A stretch of DNA of 7,483 nucleotides, from NCBI GenBank assembly GCA_020061285.1, contig JAGUYQ010000183.1:1-7483 (forward strand). The letters are read 5' to 3'. The stretch is from Betaproteobacteria bacterium. GTDB lineage: Bacteria; Pseudomonadota; Gammaproteobacteria; Burkholderiales; UBA9220. Positions within the stretch are counted from its first letter, which is position 1. The number at the start of each line of letters is the position of its first letter. Made by a program: the position numbers and the translations under genes. The notes beneath the pieces were generated by a model. The model was not told where the DNA came from. It was given only the letters and a program-made list of their open reading frames with translations, and made no database searches. Shown here piece after piece: positions 457-7,483 of this stretch.

Positions 457-2716
457 GCAGGGCAAGGAATGGAGGGACGTGGTGGCCCAGTGGAAGCAGG
501 GGGAACAGTCCCTAATGCCCGGAGCCCTCGAATATCAATGTGTACTGCTGGAGGTGTTGCGCCTCCTTCATCCGCAGCAGGCGCCCAAGCTGGCTAAAAT
601 CTCCTGGCTGGCCCCTGGCGAGAGCGAGCCGATGTGCTTGCTGGAAGATAAAGAGTTGCGGGACTACTACGCTGTCGTTATGGGCGAGATCGCCGCCAGT
701 CATGGCCTACCTAGTCATGAAATCGAGAGGTTTGCTGCCCAAAGGGTCCACACCCCAGCCTGTCTCCATCCCGCCAAGTGGAGTGTCGATGTCCTCAAGA
801 TCGCCGCCCTGCTGCGCGCCACAGACGCCGCCCACCTCGACGCCACCCGTGCGCCCAAATTCCTTTATGCCTTGACCCAACCACAAGGTACGTCCGACAG
901 CCATTGGCGCTTTCAGTCCAAGCTGGGTGCTCCTGCGGGCGATGGCGAATTGAGTGAACTGGTGTTTTCCTCTGGCGGCCAAGCCTTCAGCCAGGAAGAA
1001 AGGGACGCCTGGTGGCTTTGCTACGATACCTGTGTCATGGTGGACAAGGAATTGCGGGCCATCGATCAGATACTCCGCGAGAACCAACGCCAACCCTTTG
1101 CGCTGCGGGCTGTGCGCGGTATTTCCGACCCTTCCCGCTTCGCCGATTATGTCCGTACCGACGGTTGGCACCCCGTCGATACCTCCTTGCGCATCAGTGA
1201 CGTGGCAAGCGTGGTGGAAAATTTCGGTGGCGAGAAACTTTACGGCAATAAACCTTGGCTGGCCTTGCGCGAATTGCTGCAAAACTCTGCCGATGCGGTA
1301 CGCGCCTGCCGTTCCTTGGGTGGTTTCGGCCCCAAGGAAGGCCGAATTGATGTCGAACTCGAGGAGATGGGTGGCGAAGAATGGCTGCACGTCAGTGACA
1401 ACGGTATCGGCATGAGCCGCTATGTCCTCACCCATACTTTGCTGGATTTCGGTAAATCCCTGTGGCGCAGCAACGACGCGTGGCGCGAATGGCCCGGCTT
1501 GGCTGGCAGTGGCTTCCAAGCTACGGGACAGTTTGGCATCGGTTTCTTTTCGGTGTTCATGCTCGGTGACGCGGTCAAGATTGCCAGCTTGCCCTATGGC
1601 AAGGGGCACGAAAGTTGCCATGTACTGGAGTTCAACTATGGCTTGCATCAACGACCTTTGCTGAGGCCGCCAGGGGAGGATGAAGCCCTTAAACGTCACG
1701 GGACGCGAATTTCTGTCAGGCTGAAAAAGCCATCGAAGAAAGGCTTATTAAGCATTCGGCGGATGGGACTGTTTATAACCGGAAAGAAAAGGGGAGAACC
1801 TGAACCCGCTGGATTCTCGCTACAGGAAATCGTTGCCGCAATGGTTCCGGCACTGGATATCGATGTATGGAGCGAAGAAGCAAAGTCTGGCAAGGTTTCG
1901 TGTGTCAAGCCCAACGACTGGCAAACACTGTCTCCCGAAAATCTTCTCCAACGCCTCCTGCCGATTTATGGTTTTGTGTATCCAATCCAAGGGTATATCG
2001 AAAACCCAGGGAAGCGGATGTTATCGATTCAATCCTCAGAAGGCGAACTACTGGGACGCGGAGCCCTCACTGTTGAGCAACAACTAGGTATATTGGTGGT
2101 CAATGGCATCTATGCCGGAAATGCCGCTGGTATCGCCGGAGTGTTGGTTTCCAGGCAAAACATTGACCTCGCGCGCAGCCAAGCCATTCCCGTCGCAGGT
2201 GCCGATGAAATGGCAAGTTGGGTAAACCAACAGTGCACCAAAATGGAGGCCAAAGAGAAAACCCAATGGCTCGCCGCATGCGCCCTCAGCCTCGGCGGCG
2301 AGGTTGCGGATTGGCCTTTGGTTTACAGCCAGGACGGCGTGCTTGACCGTGATGGTCTAAAGTCTTCGGCCAAAAAATACGCTGAACTTTGGCTTGTCGA
2401 GAGTTTGACGGATTATGACTACGATAATGATGCTGAATTCTCTCCAAACGAATTCGGACAAAATTTGCAGACTCAAGAAAAGTGCTTGGAGGACAGCGAC
2501 GTCCTCTGGAGGCTACAGACATTCATTGACGACGTCGAGTGGCCGCCGCGGGATATCCCTACTATCCATCATCGGCGTCTTATCGACGCCATCGTCGAGA
2601 TACTTGAAGAGGAATGGGGTGGTGTCACGGTGGATGAGCCAAAGGAACAGCAAATAGTCGGCCACGTTAATGGCCAACCTGTTTACCGAGGAGTAAAAAT
2701 TCTTCGTAAGGCTTAA
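398..2716 (+). CDS. HD/HSP90-like ATPase protein, main part, missing the first HD segment because of the upstream frameshift
   Basis: Numbering is from TTG 398, an artificial start that simply marks the frame. Residues 2-5 (LHDA) carry the HD dipeptide, and LLRATDAAHLDATRAP (139-153) looks like the last HD helix with its Asp. An HSP90-like ATPase follows: N-box RELLQNSADA (291-300, Glu292 catalytic, Asn296 Mg-binding), G1 box SDNGIGM (333-339), G2 box GQFGIGFFSVF (377-387) and HGTRISV (434-440). These match the nucleotide-binding boxes of HtpG/HSP90. The remaining 330 or so residues are not recognised. By family knowledge, HSP90-type domains hydrolyse ATP with clamp-like conformational change and HD domains are metal-dependent phosphohydrolases; the substrate here is unknown. 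No signal peptide is seen, so it is probably cytosolic. The natural start is likely ATG 127 in the broken frame. If this frame is translated alone, ATG 515 behind AGGGGG (498-503) is a candidate start. The stop overlaps the convergent hepT stop by four bases. Confidence 0.8.
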   Translation: MLHDAGNCIAAFPGGIEGIKQGKEWRDVVAQWKQGEQSLMPGALEYQCVLLEVLRLLHPQQAPKLAKISWLAPGESEPMCLLEDKELRDYYAVVMGEIAASHGLPSHEIERFAAQRVHTPACLHPAKWSVDVLKIAALLRATDAAHLDATRAPKFLYALTQPQGTSDSHWRFQSKLGAPAGDGELSELVFSSGGQAFSQEERDAWWLCYDTCVMVDKELRAIDQILRENQRQPFALRAVRGISDPSRFADYVRTDGWHPVDTSLRISDVASVVENFGGEKLYGNKPWLALRELLQNSADAVRACRSLGGFGPKEGRIDVELEEMGGEEWLHVSDNGIGMSRYVLTHTLLDFGKSLWRSNDAWREWPGLAGSGFQATGQFGIGFFSVFMLGDAVKIASLPYGKGHESCHVLEFNYGLHQRPLLRPPGEDEALKRHGTRISVRLKKPSKKGLLSIRRMGLFITGKKRGEPEPAGFSLQEIVAAMVPALDIDVWSEEAKSGKVSCVKPNDWQTLSPENLLQRLLPIYGFVYPIQGYIENPGKRMLSIQSSEGELLGRGALTVEQQLGILVVNGIYAGNAAGIAGVLVSRQNIDLARSQAIPVAGADEMASWVNQQCTKMEAKEKTQWLAACALSLGGEVADWPLVYSQDGVLDRDGLKSSAKKYAELWLVESLTDYDYDNDAEFSPNEFGQNLQTQEKCLEDSDVLWRLQTFIDDVEWPPRDIPTIHHRRLIDAIVEILEEEWGGVTVDEPKEQQIVGHVNGQPVYRGVKILRKA

Positions 2717-3051
2717 TAACTGAGCAAGGCGCGGATTTGCGCTTCCAGCTCCGGCAAATCCTTGGCCGCCACGTTCCAGACGGTGTTGAGGTTGACCTTG
2801 AAATAGCCGTGGACCAGCCGATGGCGCATGCCGGCGATGTCGCGCCAAGGAATGGCGTGGTGGTGGTTGGCGAATTCGGGAGAGAGGCGGTTGGCGGCCT
2901 CGCCGATGATTTCGATATTGCGGATGACCGCGTCTTGCATCATGCCGTTGGCGAGGAAGGCTTGCTTGTTGGTGTTGTCGGTGTATTCAGCAATGCGGCT
3001 AATGGCGTCCAGCATGTGCTGAAGATAATCGTGGTCGCGCAATCCTTCCAT
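2713..3051 (-). CDS. hepT: HepT-like HEPN-domain RNase toxin (DUF86 family)
   Basis: The 112-residue protein has the usual length of HepT toxins. It contains RNIEIIGEAANRL (44-56), and the catalytic motif RX4HXY appears as RHRLVHGYF (Arg76, His81, Tyr83). In characterised HepT/MntA (type VII) pairs this motif forms the RNase site, and the antitoxin AMPylates its Tyr; by analogy Tyr83 would be the modified residue. I chose ATG 3051 over an upstream in-frame GTG at 3081 because it lies one base after the stop of the antitoxin gene (TGA-C-ATG), which suggests translational coupling, and because the sequence before it would lie inside the antitoxin gene. No clear ribosome site precedes it. Its stop overlaps, tail to tail, the stop of the HD/HSP90-like gene. 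Whether it is toxic in this host cannot be told from sequence. Confidence 0.9.
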   Translation of the reverse strand: MEGLRDHDYLQHMLDAISRIAEYTDNTNKQAFLANGMMQDAVIRNIEIIGEAANRLSPEFANHHHAIPWRDIAGMRHRLVHGYFKVNLNTVWNVAAKDLPELEAQIRALLSY

Positions 3052-3052
3052 G

Positions 3053-3343
3053 TCAGAGGGGAATGGCCTCGGCCAGCACACGGGCGCGGAAATCCTCGGG
3101 CAAATCGTCCGGCGTCAGCAGGTCCACGGGAATGCCAAGACTGTCCTCGATCTCATGTTGTGCCTTGACCAGGTCGAGCAAGGAGGTGTCGGCGGCAGGG
3201 TCCACCAGCAGGTCGAGGTCGCTTCCCTCCTCGTCACTTCCATGCAGTACCGATCCGAAAACACGGGCATTCGACAGGCCATGCCGGGCGATAGCCATCA
3301 AGATGGCTTCGCGGCTGGATTGAAAGGCGGTGGACGGGCGCAT
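3053..3343 (-). CDS. mntA: MntA-like minimal nucleotidyltransferase antitoxin
   Basis: This 96-residue protein is a stand-alone nucleotidyltransferase of the MNT type. The signature GSX10DXD is complete: Gly30-Ser31, then Asp42 and Asp44 in SDLDLLVD. A likely third acidic residue is Asp74 in PVDLLTP. In known type VII systems MntA transfers AMP from ATP to the Tyr of the HepT RX4-6HXY motif and so inactivates the RNase; the intact catalytic triad predicts that this copy can do the same. It is the first gene of a two-gene minus-strand operon, with hepT starting one base downstream, so the antitoxin is made first. The start is ATG 3343; no strong Shine-Dalgarno is visible. Upstream is a 116-base divergent gap shared with aroC, which must hold the promoters for both directions. 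Confidence 0.9.
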   Translation of the reverse strand: MRPSTAFQSSREAILMAIARHGLSNARVFGSVLHGSDEEGSDLDLLVDPAADTSLLDLVKAQHEIEDSLGIPVDLLTPDDLPEDFRARVLAEAIPL

Positions 3344-4596: not shown

Positions 4597-5748
4597 ATGC
4601 AGCACTACTGGCGCCTGTCCGGCTTCTACTTTTTCTATTTCGCCTTCGTCGGCGCCATGTCCCCCTATTGGGGGCTGTACCTGAAATCCCTCGACTTCAG
4701 TGCCTTCCAGATCGGGGTGCTGATGTCCCTCCTCCAGGTGATGCGCATTTTCGCCCCCAATCTGTGGGGCTGGCTGGCGGACCACCTGGGGCGGCGGGTC
4801 TTGATCGTGCAGGTCGCGGCGGGTGCGAGTTTTCTCAGTTACCTGGGGGTGTTTTTCGGCACCGGCTTTGCCTGGCTGTTCGCAGTGATGGCGTTGCTGA
4901 GCTTTTTCTGGAGCGCCTCCCTGCCCCTGGTGGAGGCCACCACCCTCAGCCACCTGGGGGAGCACACCGGCAAGTACGGGCGCATCCGCCTGTGGGGGTC
5001 GGTGGGCTTTATCGTCGCCGTGGTGGGGCTGGGCTACCTGCTTGATTATCTGCCCATCCGCGCCCTGCTGTGGGCGATCATGGGCTTCATGGCGGGGATC
5101 GTGCTGTTCTCCCGCTATATTCCCGAGGCCCAGGTGGTGCCCCATCACACCGACCATCTGTCGGTCTGGTTCGTGGTGCGCCGCCCCGAGGTGCTGGCCT
5201 TCATCGGCGGCGGATTTCTCATGGCGGCGGCCCACGGTCCTTATTACACCTTCTATTCCATCTACCTGGTGGACCACGGTTACAGCAAGGGCACCGTGGG
5301 CTGGCTGTGGGCGGTGGGGGTGATCTGCGAGATCGGGGTGTTCCTGTGGATGCCCCGCCTGTTCAAGGCCGTTTCCCTGCGGCGGGTGCTGCTGGCGAGT
5401 TTTTTCCTTGCCGTGGTGCGCTTTCTCAGCATCGGCTGGGGGGTGGAATGGTTCGCCCTGGTTCTGGCGGCCCAGGTGCTGCACGCCGCCACCTTCGGCG
5501 CCTACCACGCGGCGGCGGTGGCGGTGGTGCACCGCATGTTCCGCGGGCGCCACCAGTCCAAGGGGCAGGCCATCTACAACAGCATTTCCTTCGGCGCCGG
5601 CGGCACCCTCGGCGGACTCTACAGCGGTTACACTTGGGACGCTCTCGGCCCCGCCTGGACCTTCACCCTCGCCGCCTCCTGCGCTTTCGCCGCCCTGCTG
5701 TTGGTAGGGGCGAAGCTGCGGCTGGCGGAGGACGAGGAGGGCTACTGA
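4597..5748 (+). CDS. MFS transporter, HcaT-like (MFS_1_like) type
   Basis: A 383-residue, very hydrophobic inner-membrane protein with about twelve predicted helices; the first is near 8-28 and the last near 352-373. Family marks include the motif-A-like loop GWLADHLGRR (58-67), the segment GRIRLWGSVGFI (128-139) typical of HcaT and its relatives, and GAYHAAAVAVVHRMF with KGQAIYNSISFGAGG in the C-terminal half (311-325, 332-346). Members include the E. coli 3-phenylpropionate transporter HcaT, but substrates of most are unknown, and I would not assign one here. Spacing of 30 bases behind aroC, with a GGCCGGCC palindrome and no terminator between, suggests cotranscription. An aromatic substrate would fit that context but is speculation. 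ATG 4597 gives the natural N-terminus (WRLSGFYFFYF), without an obvious ribosome site. Its stop overlaps the end of the convergent REC-PilZ gene by seven bases. Confidence 0.9.
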   Translation: MQHYWRLSGFYFFYFAFVGAMSPYWGLYLKSLDFSAFQIGVLMSLLQVMRIFAPNLWGWLADHLGRRVLIVQVAAGASFLSYLGVFFGTGFAWLFAVMALLSFFWSASLPLVEATTLSHLGEHTGKYGRIRLWGSVGFIVAVVGLGYLLDYLPIRALLWAIMGFMAGIVLFSRYIPEAQVVPHHTDHLSVWFVVRRPEVLAFIGGGFLMAAAHGPYYTFYSIYLVDHGYSKGTVGWLWAVGVICEIGVFLWMPRLFKAVSLRRVLLASFFLAVVRFLSIGWGVEWFALVLAAQVLHAATFGAYHAAAVAVVHRMFRGRHQSKGQAIYNSISFGAGGTLGGLYSGYTWDALGPAWTFTLAASCAFAALLLVGAKLRLAEDEEGY

Positions 5749-6494
5749 AGCCCGAGGGGCTTGCCGGTCTTGCAGGAGGCGATGTAACCCTCAAGAGCCT
5801 TTCTTTGCTCGGCGTTTTCGTGGATGAACTCGAAGGCTATCTGCACGCAGCCGAAGGCATCGAGGGCGCAGTCGCCGGTTTCCACCCGCCGTATCTGCCC
5901 GTCCAGACGGAGGGGGGGATCCTTTTCCGGCTGCAAGGAGATGGTGGCGAGATCGTTGACGTGGCCGGTGTCGGGGTGGATGGGCGAGGTTTTGACCCGG
6001 CAGCCGCCCAGGGAAATATCCACCAGTTCGGCCGAGTAGACGTGAAAGGGATCGAAGCCCAGGTCCACCTCGCAGGGCAGGGCAGGCGTGAAGCGTTCGG
6101 CGGCCCTGCGCTCCCTCAGGCCGGCCAAGCGGCGCACCTTTTGGATCAATTGATCGGGGGAAAAGGGCTTGCACAGGTAATCGGAAACGTTTTCCCGGAT
6201 GGCGATTTCCCTGGCGGAAAGCTCTTCCCTGGCCGTTACCAGGACGACGTGGGCGTCCCTGTTGCCGTGATTGGCGCGAAGGTTGTCCAGAAAGTCCTGG
6301 GCGGACATGCCGGGCATTTCCAGGGCGCTGAAAATCCATTTGACGGCGGGGTTGGCATCCAGGAGGCGCAACGCATCCTCGCCATTGGCCGCTTCATGGG
6401 TCTCTTGAAAACGCAACTCGTCTTGCAGAATGGTGCGGATATATTTCCGCATCGAAAGAGAGTTATCCACCACCAGGGCAACGGTATCAGACAT
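5742..6494 (-). CDS. Degenerate receiver (REC) domain fused to a PilZ c-di-GMP-binding domain
   Basis: A 250-residue cytosolic regulator. Residues 5 to about 122 form a CheY-like receiver: LVVDNSLSMRKYI (acidic pocket, Asp10 but Asn11 instead of a second Asp), FSALEMPGM (55-63), Thr87 in VLVTA and Lys109 in CKPF. The phosphoacceptor position is Ala57 (SALEMP where SDxxMP is normal), so classical phosphorylation is not expected. The C-terminal part is a PilZ domain with intact c-di-GMP motifs: RxxxR as RAAER (130-134) and DxSxxG as DISLGG (159-164). PilZ proteins act as c-di-GMP effectors on motility, polysaccharide or surface structures; the target here is unknown. ATG 6494 is supported by GAGGTG four bases upstream. 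The gene follows a c-di-GMP-I riboswitch and, before that, a histidine kinase on the same strand. Expression control by c-di-GMP is inferred from that leader. The 3' end overlaps the convergent MFS gene by seven bases. Confidence 0.92.
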   Translation of the reverse strand: MSDTVALVVDNSLSMRKYIRTILQDELRFQETHEAANGEDALRLLDANPAVKWIFSALEMPGMSAQDFLDNLRANHGNRDAHVVLVTAREELSAREIAIRENVSDYLCKPFSPDQLIQKVRRLAGLRERRAAERFTPALPCEVDLGFDPFHVYSAELVDISLGGCRVKTSPIHPDTGHVNDLATISLQPEKDPPLRLDGQIRRVETGDCALDAFGCVQIAFEFIHENAEQRKALEGYIASCKTGKPLGLQ

Positions 6495-6498
6495 GGCT

Positions 6499-6504
6499 CA
6501 CCTC
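6499..6504 (-). promoter_or_regulatory. Shine-Dalgarno of the REC-PilZ gene
   Basis: GAGGTG on the minus strand, four bases before ATG 6494, is the clearest ribosome site in the window and fixes this start. Pyrimidine-rich CCTCC and CCTCA stretches in the leader could pair with it (for example CCTCA near 6594-6598 with TGAGG), so it may be the element masked when the leader refolds. Confidence 0.7.
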
Positions 6505-6526
6505 ATCTATTTCCATGAATTTCAGG

Positions 6527-6562
6527 CCCCCGCATTTATCGGCTAATCGCCAAATGCCAGGG
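6527..6562 (-). promoter_or_regulatory. Leader stem-loop before the REC-PilZ ribosome site
   Basis: On the minus strand GCATTT (6557-6552) pairs with AAATGC (6537-6532). Inside it GGC pairs with GCC around a GATTA loop, with a three-base bulge, and an outer CCCT/GGGG arm sits beyond one mismatch. No T-run follows, so it is not a canonical intrinsic terminator. It lies between the riboswitch and the Shine-Dalgarno and could be part of the expression platform. The stem is visible; its role is inferred. Confidence 0.5.
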
Positions 6563-6598
6563 ACGGAGGGGGGCGGAGGACATGGCTGGAGGACTGAG

Positions 6599-6614
6599 GG
6601 GAGGCAATGCTCCC
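6599..6614 (-). promoter_or_regulatory. Short stem-loop directly downstream of the riboswitch
   Basis: On the minus strand GGGAG and CTCCC form a perfect five-base stem around a six-base loop, just 3' of the riboswitch P1 stem. The loop-side TTGCC (6607-6603) repeats the 3' strand of P1 (GTTGCC, 6625-6620). It could therefore compete for the 5' strand GGCAA, a possible switch between two folds. The switching is inference. Confidence 0.4.
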
Positions 6615-6617
6615 GGT

Positions 6618-6702
6618 TTGGCAACCCCGCTGTCGTATGGCTTGCGCCCTTTAGACCGGTGGCTTTGCGTCCTTGTCTTTCGGCCAAGTTTGCCCTTTAC
6701 GA
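6618..6702 (-). ncRNA. c-di-GMP-I (GEMM) riboswitch
   Basis: The minus strand shows the ordered conserved blocks of the GEMM-I aptamer: AAAGGGCAAAC (6698-6688), a hairpin with a GAAA loop (CTTG at 6687-6684 pairing with CAAG at 6675-6672), GGACGCAAAGCC (6672-6661), CCGGTCTAA inside the third helix, and ACAGCGGGGTTGCC at the 3' end (6633-6620). P1 forms between GGCAAAC (6694-6688) and GTTGCC (6625-6620) with one bulged A. By comparison with the V. cholerae Vc2 aptamer, the base that selects the ligand (G20) is G here, at 6694, and the A stacked between the two guanines (A47) is at 6666. G at position 20 argues for c-di-GMP rather than the cGAMP-binding variant, which has A. It lies about 118 bases upstream of the REC-PilZ start, in the same orientation, and just after the histidine-kinase stop. 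Exact ends are approximate. Confidence 0.92.
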
Positions 6703-6740
6703 CCCTTGTTTGAAACCTAGCATGGGGCAGAAGGCTTGGT

Positions 6741-6760
6741 AATAAGTATAACTACTTATT
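6741..6760. repeat. Perfect 8-base inverted repeat around the histidine-kinase stop codon
   Basis: AATAAGTA and TACTTATT are perfect inverted copies separated by TAAC. The kinase TAA stop lies inside the right arm. The repeat is AT-rich in a GC-rich setting and has no T-run after it on either strand, so it is unlikely to be an intrinsic terminator. It also contains the best -10-like hexamer upstream of the riboswitch, so it could be an operator. The repeat is certain; a role is not shown. Confidence 0.5.
6745..6750 (-). promoter_or_regulatory. Candidate -10 element for the riboswitch/REC-PilZ transcript
   Basis: TATACT on the minus strand (five of six to TATAAT) sits inside the inverted repeat. 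Transcription would start near 6738, about 35 bases before the aptamer, a suitable distance. No acceptable -35 hexamer lies 17 bases upstream, so an activator or cotranscription with the upstream kinase gene is equally possible. Confidence 0.3.
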
Positions 6761-7483
6761 GAGGGAACGGGGCGGTGCCAACAAGAGGAGGGGCTTCGAG
6801 CGGGAATTGGATGTTGAATTCGGCGCCGCCGTCCGTATTGCGGGCGCTGATGGTGCCGCCCATTTTTGCCAGCATCGTTTTGGCGACGTAGAGTCCGAGG
6901 CCCGAACTCTTCTGCTTTGACGAAAAGTAGGGGTCGAATATCCGAGGGAGGAGCTCCTCGGCTATCCCCCCGGCATTGTCCGTAACGCGGATGCGGGAAC
7001 CTTCGTCGGTTTTTTCGACGGTTATGGAGACTTGTCGGCTATTTATGCTCTTCTCCAGGAAGGCATCGCGGGAATTGGACAGAATGGCCAGCAAGATTTG
7101 GGAAAGGTCCGTGGAGGAGCCCTTGATTTCAGCATCGCTGGGTGGGCTGGCGGTAAAGCAAAGACTTATGCCGTCGCTGTCGTAGGCGGGGCGAACCAGG
7201 TCGGCCACGCCCCCGACGACTTCGTTCAGCATGAAGGCCGTCGAATCCCGGTCCCGGTCAAGGTATTTGCAAAATGTGTCGATGGTGGAAGACATGTTCT
7301 GCAGGATGCGGCGGGAATCGCCAACGGACTTCTCGATCAGGTTTTCGTCCAGCTCATTGAACTGATAGGCATCCTTGATGTTGGTGCAGATCATGCCCAG
7401 AGCGGTCAAGGGTTGCCGCCAGTGGTGGGCGATATTGTGCAGCACCTCGCCGATAGCCAGATTGCGGGACTGGTCGAGGACGA
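6756..7483 (-). CDS. Sensor histidine kinase, C-terminal kinase core (5' end outside the window)
   Basis: The frame is open to the right edge, and the first visible residues (VLDQSRNLAIGE) run straight into the dimerisation helix, so the gene starts beyond 7483; the 241 visible residues hold only the transmitter. In visible numbering the H-box is IAHHWRQPL (17-25) with His19 as phosphoacceptor. This matches the AHxWRQPL type of kinases that often carry PAS or other N-terminal sensors, but the sensor part is not seen. The ATPase domain has an N-box (LSNSRDA), G1 (VTDNAGGI), F-box (IFDPYFSSK) and G2 (SSGLGLYVAKTM), so it appears catalytically complete. It probably autophosphorylates and passes phosphate to a response regulator. 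The adjacent REC-PilZ protein lacks the acceptor Asp, so the true partner is likely elsewhere. TAA at 6758-6756 ends the gene within an inverted repeat, followed by the riboswitch region. Confidence 0.93.
   Translation of the reverse strand, partial: VLDQSRNLAIGEVLHNIAHHWRQPLTALGMICTNIKDAYQFNELDENLIEKSVGDSRRILQNMSSTIDTFCKYLDRDRDSTAFMLNEVVGGVADLVRPAYDSDGISLCFTASPPSDAEIKGSSTDLSQILLAILSNSRDAFLEKSINSRQVSITVEKTDEGSRIRVTDNAGGIAEELLPRIFDPYFSSKQKSSGLGLYVAKTMLAKMGGTISARNTDGGAEFNIQFPLEAPPLVGTAPFPQ

Follow-up and report, generated by a model that had tools for sequence, protein, structure and literature searches.

A c-di-GMP-I riboswitch as the probable 5' leader of a REC-PilZ gene in Gallionella-type bacteria

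According to the available portions of the literature, GEMM RNAs were discovered upstream of certain cyclase or phosphodiesterase genes, or of genes potentially controlled by c-di-GMP, and in Vibrio cholerae the Vc1 RNA precedes gbpA and the Vc2 RNA precedes a tfoX homologue (PMC12564702). The named ligand contacts of Vc2 are G20, A47, and C92 (PMC4744006). Vc2 is described as a gene-on switch, and Cd1 of C. difficile as an off switch (PMC12564702, PMC4744006). In the parts of PMC7266159, PMC11124144, PMC4744006, PMC8683041, and PMC12564702 that were accessible, no c-di-GMP-I riboswitch before a REC-PilZ gene is described; our literature search, whose coverage is partial and no proof of absence, likewise found no such description.

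Here, we analyse a stretch of 7,483 nucleotides (the window) in which an aptamer of this class precedes, on the minus strand, the gene of a 250-residue REC-PilZ protein (5742..6494; Pfam Response_reg 1.1e-17 and PilZ 1.3e-12). With a probability of roughly 0.8, this c-di-GMP-I riboswitch is the 5' leader of the REC-PilZ gene, which is most likely transcribed alone.

The aptamer and its occurrence before REC-PilZ genes

The c-di-GMP-I (GEMM-I) aptamer occupies positions 6617..6704 of the minus strand. When the whole window was compared with Rfam, RF01051 matched from 6704 to 6617 over model positions 1-87 of 87, scoring 78.8 bits against a gathering cut-off of 35 (E 9.3e-15), and the remaining five of the six Rfam rows up to E 10 lay below their gathering scores. 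A preliminary description had already assigned this class and strand from the letters and had named the RF01051 covariance model as the check; the search agrees with it significantly, and the positions given there, 6618-6702, lie at most two bases from the ends of the match. The GAAA-capped P2 that it reported is present in the RF01051 alignment, and the gap between the neighbouring genes, 6495-6755, indeed measures 261 bases. The closing helix GGU/ACC is short, and it can form in the window aptamer.

The helices were further assessed by superposing nine orthologous aptamers, that of the window included, on the Rfam structure together with the GGU/ACC closing helix. Standard pairs account for 93.6% of the 234 pair cells, against 31.6-44.4% when the partners are slid by 1-3 columns. 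Changes on both sides occur in 6 of the 26 pairs; shuffling gives a mean of 2.0, and none of the 500 shuffles was equally high, a count that is not a probability because the nine aptamers are kin. In these alignments, the helices of RF01051 appear to be kept by compensatory change among relatives. We take G 6694, A 6666, and C 6620 to be the equivalents of Vc2 G20, A47, and C92, so that, in this presumed Vc2 register, all three contact bases would be present and the G claimed earlier for the ligand-selecting position is found at 6694. Judged by sequence and predicted structure, this is a real riboswitch of a well-known class, and the RNA itself is ordinary.

A search with the REC-PilZ protein returned 43 matches, 35 of which, including the window's own, carry both domains according to precomputed domain annotation. 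Contigs scanned with an alignment of 32 REC-PilZ proteins yielded 40 loci, and nine of them (L001-L009) hold full-length orthologs with 39-72% identity, from Gallionella, Ca. Ferrigenium, and Sulfuricella among others. Only these nine were used as orthologs, as L010-L040 match mostly in the receiver part; L011, L012, and L013, the members of that set covered by the RNA-family scan, gave no aptamer. An aptamer of the c-di-GMP-I clan was found by Rfam upstream of REC-PilZ in all eight orthologs whose leader can be read (L001-L004 and L006-L009), the contig of L005 beginning 122 bases before the gene and leaving aptamer presence unreadable there. Among eight distant loci (L082-L089), three (L083, L086, and L088) have a correctly oriented aptamer whose distance to the start of the match is 147-172 bases, and the other five have none at the gathering score. 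Together, 12 of 19 readable REC-PilZ loci, window included, have the aptamer, and seven have none, including the related locus L078 and L089, a paralog in genome G890; L078 and L080 gave no aptamer even at E 1. In the window, in the eight orthologs, and in three of eight distant loci, the RNA thus occupies the place of a putative 5' leader, ahead of a gene with a plausible link to c-di-GMP. In G890, the aptamer of L083 is the only such aptamer found in the genome, and the two close paralogs L083, with it, and L089, without it, offer a natural comparison.

By genome, the aptamer lies directly upstream of REC-PilZ in 11 of the 13 genomes found with both (8 of 8 and 3 of 5), which hold 39 aptamers over the cut-off; this count is made without the genome of L005 and with part of the candidates scored in most genomes. 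REC-PilZ and aptamer are both present and not adjacent in G170 and G649, four further genomes had no aptamer at all when searched, and 14 control genomes had none. The REC-PilZ family is patchy: at 1e-30 it was matched in 5 of the 158 genomes searched in one family and in 2 of 4 genomes; at 1e-25, in 3 of 22, in 1 of 6, and, among genomes drawn from the order (six candidates scored per genome), in 4 of 399; and with a more distant query at 1e-20, in 8 of 369 genomes drawn from the class (seven candidates per genome); since only some candidates per genome were scored in the large searches, the genome counts are lower bounds. A plasmid search with the stretch from the kinase to REC-PilZ gave no match. 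In general, the repeated pairing of aptamer and REC-PilZ, kept among related bacteria, is mildly interesting.

The same genomes carry further aptamers of the class. Eight genomes hold 29 aptamer matches, 28 of them over the cut-off, and eight of the 29 precede REC-PilZ. For 19 of the remaining 21, a plausible downstream frame was picked and scanned; L057 contributed two frames, and in some loci, such as L041 and L060, the frame chosen was not the first long one. L049, whose aptamer is the same as that of L041, and L061, which lies at a contig end, were left out. The 19 precede three PilZ, five chemoreceptor-like, one GGDEF, one HD, and one HisKA domain, four other domains, and four frames with none. 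This tally implies that these genomes generally tend to place c-di-GMP-I riboswitches ahead of signalling genes, PilZ genes among them. In G005 (Ca. Ferrigenium), the identical aptamers of L041 and L049 stand before frames that share their first 30 residues, and the frame downstream of L041 is HlyD-type.

The transcription unit

Upstream of the aptamer and on the same strand lies the C-terminal part of a histidine kinase (6756..7483, minus strand, HATPase_c 2.8e-20), cut by the window end, and the gap containing the aptamer extends from the kinase stop at 6756 to the REC-PilZ ATG at 6494. The aptamer had been presented as placed before this pair of genes, a statement that needs correction: the kinase is upstream of it, REC-PilZ alone is downstream, and tblastn (E 1e-5) with the kinase fragment gives no match in ten related loci, namely the nine orthologs and L078, whose upstream stretches differ in length and measure 122 nt in L005. 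No conserved kinase-regulator neighbourhood is therefore seen in these loci. G001, G002, and G007 contain 27, 27, and 39 matches to the kinase, and the top-scoring ones share about 40% identity with it; in G001 and G002, with 27 matches each, this marks these relatives, which lie elsewhere in the genome, as generic paralogs.

Beside REC-PilZ in L001 and L002, the two closest relatives, tblastn of the window proteins finds the MFS transporter (95% and 88%) and chorismate synthase (95% and 93%). The neighbours upstream of the aptamer are not related to one another. Judged by the closest scanned frame that has a Pfam match, those in L001 and L002 (aconitase family), L004 (flavoprotein), and L008 (HI0933-like) point away, and the same direction is seen in L003 (Tll0287-like), L006 (dihydroorotate dehydrogenase), and L007 (LTXXQ-type); in L009, the nearest scanned upstream frame is without family. 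Because the upstream frames point away in L001, L002, L004, and L008, the RNA needs a promoter of its own in these loci.

A candidate for this promoter lies inside the gap. The -10-like box TGC-TAGGTT (6714..6722, minus strand) is kept in eight of nine orthologous leaders, and 17 nt before it stands a -35-like box, TTACCA (6737..6742, minus strand), which was read from the sequence, agrees with the sigma-70 -35 consensus at 4 of 6 positions, and is weak on its own. The motif TGNTANNNT starts 17-21 nt before the aptamer in eight of the nine leaders; in 2000 shuffles it was found on average in 0.07 of 9 leaders and at most in 3, where the motif was picked after the sequences were seen and the shuffles do not keep relatedness. 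In the leader of L009, TANNNT is kept and the TG of the box is absent, as judged by eye. A consensus promoter scan found no minus-strand promoter and did not report the box at 6714..6722, so the case for a promoter is one of conservation and divergent neighbours. The conservation of the box in eight of nine leaders implies that the RNA most likely serves REC-PilZ alone, as its 5' leader. Transcription would most likely begin near 6707, just a few bases ahead of the aptamer, and would be driven by a promoter that lies within the gap and is independent of the kinase.

The alternative is a two-gene kinase/response-regulator transcript in which the aptamer, as an intercistronic switch, uncouples REC-PilZ from its cognate kinase. 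The co-directional arrangement of the two genes in the window, with the aptamer between them, accords with such an operon, but it is improbable given the missing kinase in the related loci, the paralogous nature of its relatives in G001 and G002, and the promoter-like box between the kinase stop and the aptamer. The receiver itself speaks against it as well: at the position of CheY D57, a CheY-based alignment places Ala in the window, where a phosphorylatable regulator has Asp, and A, S, E, or T in L001-L009. A kinase-regulator operon is rejected on the grounds of absent conservation and the missing phospho-Asp, and the same two observations leave the aptamer and REC-PilZ as the conserved unit. 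As deduced from these comparisons, the conserved unit consists of the promoter-like box, the aptamer, and REC-PilZ, and the kinase is outside it.

Some other features of the window may be recorded here. Positions 6741-6760 form a perfect 8-bp inverted repeat, AATAAGTA-gtta-TACTTATT, that spans the kinase stop codon and borders the predicted promoter; it may be an operator or may mark the end of the kinase gene. At 2713-3343 on the minus strand, adjoining HepT-like and nucleotidyltransferase genes form a HEPN-MNT-type pair, and the small gene of the pair matches PADLOC PDC-S09 models. On the plus strand, within 40-2716, the frame 398-2716 encodes an HD-CE domain with an HSP90-like ATPase domain and had no PADLOC match; since the overlapping frame 40-456 is matched by the initial positions of HD-CE, a frameshift or a sequencing error may be involved.

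The expression platform and its output

Between the aptamer and the start codon lies an expression platform of 122 nt (6495..6616, minus strand), in which no intrinsic terminator was found. It includes a C-rich, G-poor stretch at 6552..6611 (minus strand), a candidate Rho loading or anti-Shine-Dalgarno region with 30 C and 9 G in 60 nt, and a Shine-Dalgarno-like ATGAGG at 6501..6506 (minus strand), 6 nt before the ATG. According to class and conserved contact bases, c-di-GMP would bind the aptamer, and binding would change the fold of the 122-nt leader downstream, with the output at the REC-PilZ leader most likely being either ribosome access or Rho-dependent termination. The absence of an intrinsic terminator and the presence of the C-rich stretch make these two outputs the most likely ones; taken jointly against all other outputs, we consider them somewhat more probable than not. 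As for the sign, we lean only slightly toward an ON switch.

Control by Rho alone, a sub-case of this reading in which a rut site at 6611-6552 would be hidden or exposed by the ligand, is a tentative proposal. It draws on the C-over-G skew, which, in eight of nine ortholog leaders, ranks within the top 7.4% when compared with same-length segments of the respective sequence; the fraction of background as skewed is 0.018 in the window (both strands), 0.003 in L001, 0.019 in L002, and 0.030-0.073 in five others. On the other hand, the skew of L008 is not beyond background (0.31), C-rich leaders have other causes, and our literature search, over the parts of the sources that it reached, gave no stated Rho-dependent case for the c-di-GMP-I class.

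Folding calculations were compared with shuffled sequences. The 281-nt leader folds no better than shuffles (z -0.16), and free and bound (forced-aptamer) folds of nine leaders give no consistent ligand-dependent change in Shine-Dalgarno exposure. Similarly, in the nine leaders, neither the aptamer core (lowest p 0.055) nor the Shine-Dalgarno region (lowest p 0.273) pairs with the platform better than with shuffled platforms. Pairing of the anti-aptamer/anti-Shine-Dalgarno kind was dropped, as no leader reached p 0.05 against dinucleotide shuffles and the folds were inconsistent. The segment TTTGCGTTTAGC, common to L003, L004, L006, and L007, can pair by eye with GACGCAAA.

A transcriptional switch by intrinsic termination, as in many Firmicutes riboswitches, is known in the class, Bc1 of Bacillus having two rho-independent terminators in the accessible part of the report (PMC11218506), but it is quite improbable for this leader. 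One script found no terminator-like hairpin followed by a U tract in 11 of 12 leaders, window included, the leader of L088 having one terminator-like match, and a consensus scan found no minus-strand terminator at 6400-7000.

The ligand, the protein, and a possible two-layer device

That the ligand is altered, being 3',3'-cGAMP or another dinucleotide instead of c-di-GMP, is the least probable alternative and very improbable here: GEMM-I preference is reported as variable, and Geobacter GEMM riboswitches prefer cGAMP, in the available portion of PMC8683041, and ortholog L009 has A at the position equivalent to G20 while ortholog L003 is called by the GGC variant RF03167, but in the window the selecting position is G, the equivalents of A47 and C92 are present, and P2 is followed by GGACGC, that is, GAC without GGC.

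The deviating orthologs have further peculiarities. In L003, the aptamer at 1401-1487 reads GGCGC where GACGC is expected; it is called as RF03167 (c-di-GMP-I-GGC) with 60.5 bits (cut-off 59) and scores 69.7 bits with RF01051. The platform of L003 has GCGCCC where L006 and L007 have GCGTCC, by eye a possible matching change. Genome G008 carries two aptamers, L009:5778-5864 and L059:1501-1585, both with A at the Vc2-G20 position by eye, and the P2 loop of the L009 aptamer is AAAA, not GAAA. Among GEMM-I RNAs, the G20-to-A change is tied to altered ligand choice.

The motifs of PilZ c-di-GMP receptors are RxxxR and DxSxxG. Both are intact in the PilZ domain of the window protein (ERRAAER and DISLGG), which would make it a c-di-GMP receptor by sequence; in L007, the first Arg of RxxxR is absent, and L078 has DxAxxG. 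The REC-PilZ protein itself is likely to bind c-di-GMP. In combination with the receiver that has no phosphorylatable Asp, the intact PilZ motifs make signalling from a kinase to the receiver unlikely. The AlphaFold2 model has a mean pLDDT of 82.9 and a pTM of 0.57; its top Foldseek rows are CheY chains on the receiver half (TM 0.47 by query length), and the best 50 rows are all CheY or other receiver-type chains apart from a single uncharacterised N-terminal domain, with no row named as PilZ.

As REC-PilZ is, by its PilZ motifs, a probable c-di-GMP receptor, a single messenger would determine how much of the protein is made as well as how active it is. The Kd values in the accessible part of PMC12564702 are 1 nM for Vc2 RNA and 840 nM for a PilZ domain from E. 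coli; if such affinities apply to this pair, the RNA would be triggered by c-di-GMP levels below those to which the protein responds, giving a two-step response. Another finding is that the phospho-Asp is kept in 2 of the 12 loci with the aptamer (L083 and L086, which have both) versus 6 of the 7 without (L078 having neither) among the 19 readable loci (Fisher p 0.006). In the tree, nine of the 12 aptamer loci cluster in one 11-row group (support 86/93), whose other two members are the cut L005 and the aptamer-less L078, and four gains or losses of the aptamer are required. Given this grouping and the four events, the link between loss of Asp and the aptamer is a lead and not proof. It is conceivable, if doubtful, that several lineages have a two-layer c-di-GMP device in which the RNA sets the dose of a PilZ receptor for the same messenger, and that in the Gallionella/Sulfuricella-type group, whose receiver domain has lost its Asp, the RNA input replaced phosphorylation. 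If the receiver lost phosphorylation while the RNA stays, this would be a testable example of one control replacing another.

For the uncharacterised REC-PilZ of Gallionella-type bacteria, the leader provides a likely input signal. It also contributes a recurrent example of a single gene at which an RNA receptor and a protein receptor for the same second messenger are layered. Compared with Vc2 and Vc1 of Vibrio cholerae (RF01051), the window aptamer is alike in its G20, A47, and C92 equivalents and in the GAAA loop of P2; their targets are the tfoX homologue and gbpA, whereas the target of the window aptamer is REC-PilZ. The c-di-GMP-I-GGC family (RF03167) belongs to the same clan, but the window aptamer is best matched by RF01051. 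Similarly, the window protein resembles receiver-bearing PilZ c-di-GMP receptors, with Response_reg and PilZ over their cut-offs and both binding motifs, and it is unlike them in that its receiver has no phospho-Asp and its synthesis is probably under a c-di-GMP riboswitch.
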